NCBI GenBank assembly: GCA_021773055.1
Contig: JAJFKV010000081.1
Location: 1-64,000, forward strand
DNA: 64,000 nucleotides
Direction: 5' to 3'
Source of the DNA: Woeseiaceae bacterium
GTDB taxonomy: Bacteria; Pseudomonadota; Gammaproteobacteria; Steroidobacterales; Woeseiaceae
In this document: in pieces, positions 39,702-43,377 of the stretch
How the letters are laid out: each line of letters starts with the position of its first letter
Position numbering within the stretch: the first letter of the stretch is position 1
Notes under the pieces: model-generated
The model's input: the letters and a program-made list of their open reading frames with translations, nothing else
Databases searched by the model: none
What the model was told of the DNA's origin: nothing
Made by a program: the position numbers and the translations under genes

Positions 39702-41096
39702 ATGCCGCTCGAACTAAGAATCGTTAGTGAACACGCCGATCTCGTGGGCGATGATGCCGTACGCGAATATCACGAGGGTGGCGGCACTATTGGGCGCTCA
39801 CTTCACAACGACTGGATTCTTCCGGATCCGGATCGCTTTATCTCTGGCCGCCACGCCACTATCGACTACCAGGGCGGTATTTATTACCTCGCCGACATTA
39901 GTAGCAACGGTGTGTACGTCAATGAGGAAGTGGAGCCAATTGGCAAAGGCAACCCACGACGACTTTTCGACGGTGACCGTTTGCGTTTGGGCGATTTTGA
40001 AATTGAGGTGTCCATCGATTCCGGCGAGAGCCTGGTCATGCCAATGGAAGAAGAATCTTCTGTTGCACCAGACAACATCGAACAATTTGTGGATGAGGTT
40101 TCTCTGCGCACCGGCATGACGATGCTTGCAGAAGATGAAATCACCGGCGACGACGAGTTTCAGTCAGTGCTATTTGGCGGCAGTTCCAAAAAAGAGCAGC
40201 CCGCACCGAAACCAGAAATCGATATCGAAGTTGACGTACCCGGTAAGGGCGCAGAATCAAAATCAGTCGACGTGACGGCAGAGGATCTGTTCGACTCATT
40301 TCTCGACGGTCTGGGCGTTAGTCGAGTCGAGTTGCATCCATCTGTCAACCGGCCCGAGATGATGCTCACTGCAGGTCAGGTACTGCGCGAGTTCGTCAAC
40401 GGTGCAACCAAGCTACTCTCGAGCCGGGCCAATTTGAAAAATACATTTCGTCTGGACCAGACGACTGTCTTGCCAAGACACAACAATCCGATGAAGTTCT
40501 CGGAAAACACCAACGATCTGCTGAAGCAGCTATTGGTAGGCGGCGAAGGCGAATATCTTGGCGCGCAGGACTCGATTCGAGAAGTGTGCCGCGACCTGAT
40601 CAATCATCAAAACGCGTTTCTCGATGCTATGAACAGCGCATTTATCGAATTCGCTGACCGCTTTGATCCGGACGAATTGCAGGAAGGCTTTGACCGGACC
40701 ATGGGCAAGAAGTTGTTTGGATTCGCAAACAAGACGAAATACTGGCAGTTGTATTGCGATCTGTATCCGATCATCACCCAAAAAGGTGGCGGCCGGTTCC
40801 CGCAAATGTTTGGCGAGGAATTTGTCAAAGCCTACGAACGCCAAGTCGCCGAATATCAGCGACACGACCGCGACGGCACAGCCAATGACGCCGCCTGCCA
40901 GGCAAACGAGCCGGGGCTGATGGAAACGCAGAAACTGGACCGCCGCCCGGTAGCGCCAGAGGAAACAGCCTTTGAGGCGGACGATGTCGTTGACGCTCTA
41001 TCCGAGTCAGGTGCCAGCGAAATCGATCATAGCTTTATAGACGAACTCGACAACTCAATGTCGGAAGCCGTATCTGAAGATCAGCTAAAGGCCTGA
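39702..41096 (+). CDS. TagH/Fha-type FHA-domain protein (orphan type VI secretion regulator)
   Basis: 464 residues. The N-terminal FHA domain (about 5-105) has the phosphothreonine-binding residues in TIGRSLHND, SGRHATI and ISSNGVYVN. The C-terminal helical domain (about 190-390) resembles the TagH domain of type VI secretion (LREFVNGATKLLSSRANLKNTFRLDQT, NPMKFSENTNDLLKQLL, KYWQLYCDLYP). Fha1/TagH proteins are activated by Ser/Thr kinases of the system. No other type VI gene is in the window. The only kinase is the cNMP-linked one 13 kb away. Confidence 0.85.
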   Translation: MPLELRIVSEHADLVGDDAVREYHEGGGTIGRSLHNDWILPDPDRFISGRHATIDYQGGIYYLADISSNGVYVNEEVEPIGKGNPRRLFDGDRLRLGDFEIEVSIDSGESLVMPMEEESSVAPDNIEQFVDEVSLRTGMTMLAEDEITGDDEFQSVLFGGSSKKEQPAPKPEIDIEVDVPGKGAESKSVDVTAEDLFDSFLDGLGVSRVELHPSVNRPEMMLTAGQVLREFVNGATKLLSSRANLKNTFRLDQTTVLPRHNNPMKFSENTNDLLKQLLVGGEGEYLGAQDSIREVCRDLINHQNAFLDAMNSAFIEFADRFDPDELQEGFDRTMGKKLFGFANKTKYWQLYCDLYPIITQKGGGRFPQMFGEEFVKAYERQVAEYQRHDRDGTANDAACQANEPGLMETQKLDRRPVAPEETAFEADDVVDALSESGASEIDHSFIDELDNSMSEAVSEDQLKA

Positions 41097-41182
41097 ACCT
41101 GCGGCGATCCAGAAAAGTCGTCACCTAATCTGACAACCACTTTCGGAAGAGAAGGGTGAACGCTGAGCGCGCAGCGCAGGGC

Positions 41183-41246
41183 TGCGGCTGGTACGCCAAT
41201 GGCTTCTCCACGACCCACAGTCGAATTCATTGGCGTACCAGCCGCA
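41183..41246. repeat. Hairpin 1 of the composite palindrome
   Basis: A 19-bp perfect stem (41183-41201 with 41228-41246) and a 26-base loop. The loop contains CTCCACGACCCACAGTC at 41206-41222, which reappears in inverted orientation in the loop of hairpin 2. The stem sequence itself is not shared with hairpin 2. Confidence 0.88.
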
Positions 41247-41294
41247 TCTCGTCAGTCGGTCACGTATTTCACCTAACCGTCACAGCATTGAACA

Positions 41295-41368
41295 GGTGTC
41301 GGTCCGGGATGGTCGAAGCTGGTGACTGTTGGTCGTGGAGCCGGCGTCGACCATCCCGGACCGACGCC
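41295..41368. repeat. Hairpin 2 of the composite palindrome
   Basis: A 22-position stem (41295-41316 with 41347-41368), all paired with one T-G wobble at 41297/41366, and a 30-base loop. The loop carries GACTGTTGGTCGTGGAG at 41324-41340, complementary to the hairpin 1 loop motif at 16 of 17 positions. Confidence 0.88.
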
Positions 41369-41427
41369 GGATTAAGAACTCGGATTAGTCCAAAAGTGGT
41401 TGTCCAATCCGGTGACGGCTATAACAC

Positions 41428-43377
41428 CTAGCCAACTTTGTTCTGCCGGTTGTCAATCAGGTCATCAACCACAGCCGGATCGGCCAATGTCGATGTGTCA
41501 CCGAGATTAGCAAAATCATCGGCAGCGACTTTTCTCAAAATTCGACGCATAATTTTTCCGGAACGAGTCTTTGGCAGCCCTGGTGCCCATTGCAACAAAT
41601 CGGGTTTGGCAATCGGTCCGATTTCCTTGCGAACCCACTGTTGCAGCTCCGCCTTTAACTCGTCGCTGGACTCCACGCCGCCCATCAATGTGACGTACGC
41701 GTATATGCCCTGCCCTTTAATTTCGTGGGGATAACCAACGACAGCCGCTTCGGCGACATCTTTATGAGCGACGAGGGCGCTTTCCACTTCTGCGGTGCCC
41801 ATGCGATGTCCCGAAACATTCAGAACATCATCCACGCGCCCCGTGATCCAGTAGTACCCGTCTTCATCACGACGTGCGCCATCGCCCGTAAAGTAGTTGC
41901 CTTCGAAGGTGGAAAAGTAGGTTTCAATAAAGCGCTGATGGTCACCGTAAATGGTGCGCATTTGTCCCGGCCAGCTGTCGGTAATTATCAGGATTCCTTC
42001 TGCAGCACCGTCTTGTATATTGCCCTCGCCGTCAACGATCTCCGGCATGATTCCGAACAGAGGCTTGGTCGCCGAACCCGGTTTGAGCGCGGTTGCGCCG
42101 GGTAACGGGCTGATCAGGATACCGCCGGTTTCAGTCTGCCACCAGGTATCAACGATGGGGCAGCGCTCTTCGCCAACCACTCTGTAGTACCACTGCCAGG
42201 CCTCAGGGTTGATGGGTTCGCCCACCGAGCCCAAAAGACGCAGACTCTTTCGAGAGGTTTTCTTGACGGGCTCATCGCCATCGCGCATCAGCGCACGAAT
42301 CGCGGTCGGCGCCGTATAGCAAATATTGACGTTGTGCTTGTCGCAAACCTCCCAGAACCGTGACGAATCCGGATAGTTCGGCACGCCTTCAAACATCAGT
42401 GAGATAGCACCATTGGCCAGCGGGCCGTAGACGATATAGCTGTGGCCCGTCACCCAGCCCACATCAGCTGTGCACCAGTAGACGTCGCCGGGTTGATAGT
42501 CGAATACATACTCGTGCGTCATCGCCGCGTAAACCAGGTAGCCACCGGTGGTGTGCAGCACACCTTTGGGTTTACCTGTCGAACCTGATGTGTAGAGGAT
42601 GAACAGCGGGTCTTCGGCGCCCATCTCTTCGCAAGGGCATTCGGCATCAACTTGTTGTTCGATTTCATGCAGCCATACATCGCGGCCTTCGACCCAACCG
42701 ATATCCGATCCAGTGTTTCTGACGACGAGCACTTTCTCGAGCGTTGTCACTTCATCGCGCTCGGCAGCAGCATCAACATTCGCTTTGAGCGGAATACCTT
42801 TGCCGCCGCGCAGACCTTCGTCCGCCGTGATGACAATATTGGATTCGCAGTCGTGAATACGACCGGCCAACGCATCGGGCGAAAAGCCGCCAAATACGAC
42901 GGAGTGCACAGCCCCGATACGCGCACACGCAAGCATCGAAACTGCTGCATCCGGAATCATCGGCATATAAATCGTTATGCGGTCGCCCTTCTTCGCACCC
43001 AGCGCTTTAAGCGCATTGGCAAATTTGCACACGCGTTCGTGCAGCTCGCCATAGGTTATCTTCAGATCACGGTTCGGGTCATCACCTTCCCAGATAATCG
43101 CGATGTCGTCGGCATTTCCGTCGAGATGACGATCGACACAGTTGTAGCAGGCGTTGAGCGTGCCGTCTTCATACCAGCGAATGTGCAAATCGTCTTTCGC
43201 GTAGCTGACATCCTTTACCTTGCTAAAAGGCTTGATCCAGTCGACACGCTGTGCCTGTTCGGCCCAAAACCCCTCGTTGTCCTGCAACGATCGGGCGTAC
43301 ATTTCTTCGTACTTGGCTGTGGTAATCAGTGTGCGTTCCTTTGTGGCTTCTGGAACGGGGTAGGTCTTCGTGTCCAT
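41428..43377 (-). CDS. acs: Acetyl-coenzyme A synthetase
   Basis: 649 residues, standard Acs. It activates acetate to acetyl-CoA via acetyl-AMP. Motifs: [22 protein letters not shown] (AMP loop), [16 protein letters not shown], and the C-terminal [15 protein letters not shown], whose lysine is the known acetylation switch. It begins 11 bases after the CoA-lyase stop, so acs is the last gene of a maoC-lyase-acs operon. Confidence 0.97.

Follow-up and report, generated by a model that had tools for sequence, protein, structure and literature searches.

A clade-restricted family of palindromic repeats with conserved hairpin loops and free but paired stems in a genus of Woeseiaceae

Introduction

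What is the palindrome of about 300 bp that fills the gap between two convergent genes in a Woeseiaceae bacterium? The locus lies within a stretch of 64,000 nucleotides (GenBank assembly GCA_021773055.1, contig JAJFKV010000081.1, positions 1 to 64,000), hereafter the window, to which all coordinates given without a contig refer. The original prediction, made from the letters of the window, offered three possibilities: a non-autonomous mobile element with terminal inverted repeats (TIRs), an RNA pair or a strong two-way transcription stop. We analyzed the palindrome itself, its copies in other genomes of the genus and the way in which their sequences vary.

Results

Structure of the window copy

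The palindrome occupies positions 41116-41420. Imperfect inverted arms form its ends and enclose two inverted hairpins, the loops of which lie 118 bp from each other. Its parts and neighbours are listed below, R1 being a covariance model of one hairpin.

39702..41096, plus strand: left neighbour, FHA-domain type VI secretion protein (PF20232, 4.4e-46; PF00498, 3.8e-17)
41116..41147, plus strand: left outer arm, TIR-like, 81% complementary to 41389-41420
41183..41246, loop sense on the minus strand: hairpin A, 24-bp stem and 16-nt loop (R1 match, E 1.6e-15)
41207..41222, minus strand: conserved loop of hairpin A, GACTGTGGGTCGTGGA
41247..41299, no strand assigned: spacer between hairpins A and B
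41300..41363, loop sense on the plus strand: hairpin B (R1 match, E 5.2e-14)
41324..41339, plus strand: conserved loop of hairpin B, GACTGTTGGTCGTGGA
41389..41420, plus strand: right outer arm, TIR-like; 7 nt separate its end from that of the convergent acs gene at the stop codon
41428..43377, minus strand: right convergent neighbour, acetyl-CoA synthetase, acs (PF00501, PF13193, PF16177)

The inverted outer arms, first described as identical at 25 of 31 positions, were recovered as 41116-41147 and 41389-41420 (81% over 32 nt), and so was the long hairpin announced for each half. The arms of hairpin A (41183-41206 and 41223-41246) pair at 92% of 24 positions and those of hairpin B (41288-41322 and 41341-41375) at 83% of 35, the pairing of hairpin B going a few bp beyond 41300..41363 on both sides. 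Ends akin to the left outer arm, like TGTGATAGTCGTCA, were observed on other copies, and the spacer is also alike between copies, as judged by BLAST and by the listing of copies. Loop A (41206-41222) is complementary to loop B (41324-41340) at 94% of 17 positions, and the stems of the two hairpins have unrelated sequences. The palindrome can thus be read as two inverted copies of a unit of about 150 bp as regards its arms, loops and layout, but not as regards its stems.

As a single strand, the window copy folds at -175.7 kcal/mol (z -12.25) and the other strand reaches a z of -8.88; for either strand, none of 100 shuffles was as stable. A search of Rfam 15 with 801 bases returned no family at the gathering score, the best match, to a microRNA family, scoring 29.8 bits where the cut-off is 100. 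A scan of 41050-41480 for terminators returned a single, weak candidate against a shuffle mean of 0.4; it lies at 41417-41433 and is part of neither hairpin. No intrinsic terminator (GC-rich stem, then T-run) was found at either hairpin of the window copy; since the loop limit of the scan (8 nt) would miss a 16-nt loop, the absence of a T-run was also read from the sequence. No promoter-like site was found in the window copy either. As to the proposed strong two-way transcription stop, the scan showed no terminator at the stems.

Copies in the genus

BLAST of 41105-41430 (326 bases) matched the own genome 34 times at E≤10, on many contigs, some of these matches being the palindrome against itself. 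At E≤0.001, matches were obtained in 3 of 60 genomes, namely the own genome and two of the same genus. Further copies therefore exist, and the case foreseen in the original prediction in which no second copy of either half occurs anywhere did not arise. When up to one mismatch was allowed, the 17-base loop was present in 6 of the 73 genus genomes and in up to 24 places in one genome; as a control, the reversed loop pattern was found in 4 places across all 73. An exact-match loop search of 396 genomes of the order returned the same 6 genomes only.

The covariance search proposed for the half-unit was carried out with R1. At E≤0.01, it yielded 144 matches in 9 of the 73 genus genomes (57 in G060, 27 in G016, 24 in G080, 16 in G000, 10 in G069, 4 in G010, 3 in G008, 2 in G015 and 1 in G002), of which 6 are the second strand of an already counted hairpin, several run off the end of a contig and one, G016:C153, showed no stem on inspection. 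The 396-genome sample of the order, which includes the genus, gave the same 9 genomes only, R1 searches of more than 40 genomes being run with stricter filters that lose weak matches. New loop variants stayed mostly within the frame GMCTGTNNNYYGKGRA. Several of the G060 matches lie at contig ends, and in one G060 element (L360, G060:C46:27205-27522) the sequence turns into G/C homopolymers at the end of the contig, still within the element, which is a fault of assembly or of read quality.

A loop-pattern scan of the whole GTDB returned 62 stretches, 37 from this genus and 25 from other records; the membership of the 37 in genus genomes was inferred, and the own genome was possibly absent from the scan. 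The 37 stretches belong to the metagenome-assembled genomes Woeseiaceae OFTM126, OFTM48, OFTM62 and PFL54, Gammaproteobacteria bin.87 and P_S1_bin.8, and Proteobacteria B33T1B5. Among them, 33 had 15-20 of 20 stem pairs (G-T counted) and the other 4 were cut by the stretch end. By comparison, none of the 25 stretches from other records exceeded 11 of 20 stem pairs, one of these being cut. In the open-licence literature, we found no described family of this kind and nothing on 'palindromic' in Woeseiaceae. The window palindrome belongs to a family of palindromic repeats that is restricted to one clade of marine bacteria. The unit of the family, a conserved 16-nt loop on a long stem of at least 24 bp, occurs as inverted doubles and singly at gene 3' ends.

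Double hairpins and their outer arms

The doubles consist of two inverted hairpins with related outer ends. Their loops are 116-118 bp apart in most copies and 149-159 bp apart in three doubles of G060, and about 300-370 bp separate the ends of the five complete doubles. Convergent genes flank 31 of 46 doubles or other non-solo copies, as judged from mechanical ORF calls around the elements. For the outer arms, 17 doubles were submitted and 13 passed the script filter: a double's own arms were each other's best match in 5 (one tie) and second best in 3, including the window copy, while the remaining 5 had no matching arms, their own arms ranking 7th-9th. The end pattern GTGATAGTCGTCACCTGATC, with at most three mismatches, was found in 7 places in G000, 6 in G016 and 4 in G060 (control 2), and in none in G069, G080, G027 or G014.

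No larger element with the same ends was observed at the 6 of these 17 places that were viewed, with a span of at most 600 bases per place. Neither a transposase nor any other gene cognate to the hairpin family was found. Nine loci were given to the target-duplication test, and six had both TIR ends in a usable pair; L133 (fold-back), the window copy and L054 (no valid end pair) were left out. A direct repeat flanks two of the six elements (TAGA at L132, GATTAGA at L135), and no direct repeat longer than 2 bp was present at L134, L361, L052 and L050. The non-autonomous mobile element with TIRs of the original prediction is supported by the multiple copies, the TIR-like ends and the convergent position of 31 of 46 non-solo copies; the direct repeats at two of six elements are at most candidate target-site duplications.

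Some copies appear to be rearranged. In single-hairpin forms of G080 (L098, L100, L101, L105, L107), G016 (L111) and G000 (L130), the outer arms of A and B meet at the loop; this was judged by eye and is what a deletion between the loops would produce. L361 (G000:C33:75637-75768) is a short element with both TIR-like ends and neither hairpin, probably an internal deletion derivative. At L133 (G000:C57:110593-110961), the contig ends in a fold-back, the sequence that follows the element being the preceding flank in reverse complement; this most likely reflects faulty assembly at the palindrome.

Single hairpins at gene 3' ends

Twenty-two hairpins were placed at gene 3' ends as solos, two of which (L196 and L201) are actually one of a pair. 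Their stems measure 26-40 bp in 21 cases and 14 bp in L125. At five orthologous sites, the same gene 3' ends carry hairpins in different species, mostly with unrelated stems, the gene identities being taken from Pfam on one member per group:

after clpB, before a zinc-ribbon gene: G000, G016, G010, G015, G069, G080
after an M20 peptidase gene: G002, G060, G010, G016, G080
after pgk: G000, G016, G069, and a double in G060
after a Methyltransf_9 gene, before a MarR-like gene: G015, G069
after a TldD/PmbA gene: G069, G080

A clpB match was obtained in 64 of the 73 genomes. Thirty loci were viewed, one of which (G092) had just 82 bases downstream; 6 carried the hairpin and 24 did not, the family carriers G002 and G060 being among the latter. 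For pgk, 30 loci were likewise viewed and the other 26 had no hairpin, the pgk region of G010 (L232) being used for the tree alone. In G015 and G069, two inverted hairpins are present at clpB; the second ones are not among the R1 matches, and that of G015 pairs over 7 bp without gaps. By eye, the inner 17 bp of the clpB hairpin are recognisably homologous in G015, G016 and G000, and the outer stem has changed yet is still paired.

The third codon positions of pgk are only 34-52% identical among the carriers (0.34-0.52), a divergence at which an unselected hairpin should have decayed. Since hairpins were kept at fixed sites while third codon positions diverged almost fully, some of those at clpB, pgk and other fixed sites are probably under selection, and some copies look domesticated. 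In a pgk tree of 31 genomes (midpoint root, supports not read), the carriers fall outside one large non-carrier clade, and G027, G079, G004, G073 and G011, which have no matches, lie among the carriers. One gain of the pgk hairpin with later losses is plausible.

Other inverted repeats occur at these sites in non-carrier species (L284 in G003 after clpB, L161 in G035 after pgk), and the two gene ends may attract repeats of several kinds.

Fixed loops on free but paired stems

Throughout the family, the 16-nt loop and its TTC/GAA closure are conserved, and the stems are near-free in sequence yet paired. Covariation was analyzed on 28 of 55 listed hairpins, in a gapless alignment with a 24-bp stem. 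Changes on both sides were observed at 22 of the 24 stem pairs. Overall, 95.8% of 672 stem cells were paired versus 60.0% in shuffles, and the covariation score was 0.950 versus 0.245 (sd 0.018) in shuffled and at most 0.169 in slid alignments; related copies among the 28 hairpins may explain part of the excess over the shuffles, but the slid control retains this kinship.

Some stem positions are nevertheless constrained in the 24 gene-end hairpins, that is, the 22 solos and the second clpB hairpins of G015 (7 bp counted) and G069. Of the 24, 23 have G at position 17 of the 5' arm, and at position 7 of this arm T was observed in 20 and C in the other 4; position 16 is G in 16 and position 14 is A in 17, while most other stem positions beyond the TTC closure carry less than 0.5 bit. 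A larger set of 80 hairpins of all kinds was selected for a loop pattern and for Watson-Crick pairing at 17 or more of 24 stem pairs; in 22 of these, an A-G mismatch recurs at stem pair 4. In the same set, loop positions 2 and 15 change jointly (A/G 49, C/A 30, C/G 1). This non-Watson-Crick covariation, A/G or C/A in 79 of 80, possibly marks two recognition classes.

Asymmetry between the strands

On the GMCTGT strand of the 24 gene-end hairpins, we counted 19 G-T mismatches against 2 A-C, with 12 other mismatches (p 2.2e-4). The 80 hairpins gave 29 G-T, 8 A-C and 34 others. The 80 include many related copies and the 24 some orthologues, so that neither count is fully independent. Damage acting alike on both DNA strands should leave equal numbers of G-T and A-C. 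The 19:2 excess, together with the G at position 17, indicates that one strand of the hairpin seems to be read, and the conserved positions look like protein contacts with a folded strand.

Regarding the nature of this strand, a hand count at the five orthologous sites gave 9 hairpins in sense and 9 in antisense to the upstream gene. Moreover, in G000 and G016 the genes on either side of the clpB hairpin run in the same direction and the hairpin is antisense to both of them, yet it attains 32 bp in G000 and 29 bp in G016. The read strand is therefore not usually mRNA, which favours folded DNA over RNA. For the RNA pair of the original prediction, these orientations speak against an element of the mRNA and leave room for RNA of another kind. 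Flipping of the loop in situ, considered as an explanation for the random orientation, is not needed, because a double reads antisense first and sense second from either side and because G015 and G069 keep two clpB hairpins.

Discussion

The combination of a fixed loop with a free stem is the key to recognising this family beyond a single palindrome, and it suggests that some protein reads the hairpins. The layout is best read as that of a double-hairpin repeat resembling REPIN or MITE elements. We lean towards an old, non-autonomous mobile double-hairpin repeat, whose hairpin would be read by a putative binding protein and some copies of which would have been domesticated. The doubles would be, or would once have been, the mobile element. 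The hairpin of the GMCTGT strand would be exposed as single-stranded DNA or as an extruded cruciform, and the putative protein would read the loop with its TTC/GAA closure and, 14-17 bp down the stem, one further contact. The solos would mostly be single hairpins left from old doubles.

A bolder version, which we advance tentatively and with more doubt than confidence, would make the hairpin a new class of DNA signal. A putative protein would then read the 16-nt apical loop and, on one strand, contacts spaced by roughly one helical turn (5' arm position 7 and positions 14-17), the remaining stem being free; the signal would have spread as a mobile double-hairpin repeat and undergone domestication at core-gene 3' ends, for example those of clpB and pgk, in one bacterial genus. 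If a protein does read the hairpin, more than 100 natural copies are at hand from which its contacts could be inferred before the protein itself is identified. Because the stems drift, plain sequence searches see such repeats poorly, and relatives in other genomes may be missed.

Three other readings were weighed. The copies could be passive palindromes, old functionless repeat debris with arms kept complementary by intrastrand template switching (quasi-palindrome correction). Palindrome correction produces matched changes in both arms, and the copies are indeed clade-specific; however, both strands should then fare alike, against the ratio of 19:2 in favour of G-T, and neither the loop, nor position 17, nor the A-G mismatch at stem pair 4 would be preserved, so that this reading appears very improbable to us. 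The main rival to folded DNA is an RNA element, in which a transcript hairpin would act as a bidirectional terminator, a 3'-end stabiliser or a protein-bound RNA, with the loop as an RNA-protein or loop-loop contact. It would explain why the hairpins lie just 3' of stop codons, often between convergent genes, why the window copy gives strong RNA folds and has complementary loops, and why G-U exceeds A-C, a classical RNA signature. We nevertheless regard it as unlikely in view of the 9:9 orientation, the long antisense clpB hairpins, the window copy's want of a promoter-like site and of an intrinsic terminator inside its hairpins, and the lack of an Rfam family at the gathering score.

A strict REPIN or BIME, that is, REP hairpins moved by a TnpA-REP (RAYT) transposase, would share with the family the inverted hairpin pairs and the intergenic, convergent location, and Y1_Tnp genes are present in the genus. 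Strand-specific recognition of single-stranded DNA hairpins is also the mode of TnpA-REP, according to the portions consulted of two papers (PMC8266576, PMC3733652). The REP tags are mostly absent, GTAG/GGAG standing at the 5' foot of 3 of 22 solos and CGTC/TGTC in 1 of 22, and the stems of 24-40 bp contrast with the 5-13 bp given for GTAG REPs in the portion consulted of PMC3733652. RAYT (PF01797, E≤1e-5) was detected in 48 of the 73 genus genomes; it was not found in the carriers G010 and G008 (the latter 64% complete), and none of the 10 PF01797 genes in carriers was on a contig with an R1 match, many contigs being short. RAYT was rejected as a partner, since its distribution does not track that of the hairpins, and we consider a strict REPIN or BIME quite improbable.

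Comparison with known systems

With its multiple copies of about 300-370 bp and TIR-like ends, the preferred mobile double-hairpin repeat is similar to the MITEs of bacterial IS elements. Terminal inverted repeats are present in the window copy (outer arms at 81%) and missing as matching arms in 5 of 13 doubles. Unlike those MITEs, the family has two internal covarying hairpins with fixed loops, and no partner IS was found at the 6 of 17 end-pattern places viewed. Double-hairpin elements of fungal mitochondrial DNA reportedly also carry two hairpins per mobile unit (Paquin 2000); they are organelle DNA and said to be much shorter, and the likeness is one of description.

Integron attC sites are strand-specific folded hairpins of variable stem sequence that directly follow stop codons, with the core boxes GTTRRRY and RYYYAAC at the stem base. 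The hairpins described here share the variable stem, the position just 3' of stop codons and, probably, the strand-specific fold. In contrast to attC, their conserved part is the loop end, and none of the 22 solos had the attC boxes at the stem foot.

Further parallels lie with REP, REPIN and BIME sequences, as far as they are described in the portions of the literature consulted: intergenic hairpins, often in inverted pairs (here doubles with loops mostly 116-118 bp apart, 31 of 46 convergent), a preference for convergent genes and a hairpin that is here probably strand-specific. The family differs in its long free stems, its conserved 16-nt loop and the scarcity of the GTAG/CGTC tag. REP families, in the same sources, are defined by their stems and end tags, whereas the present family keeps its loop while the stem drifts with pairing as its sole constraint. 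What remains is a likely resemblance in working principle to REP and TnpA-REP, namely the strand-specific reading of a hairpin.
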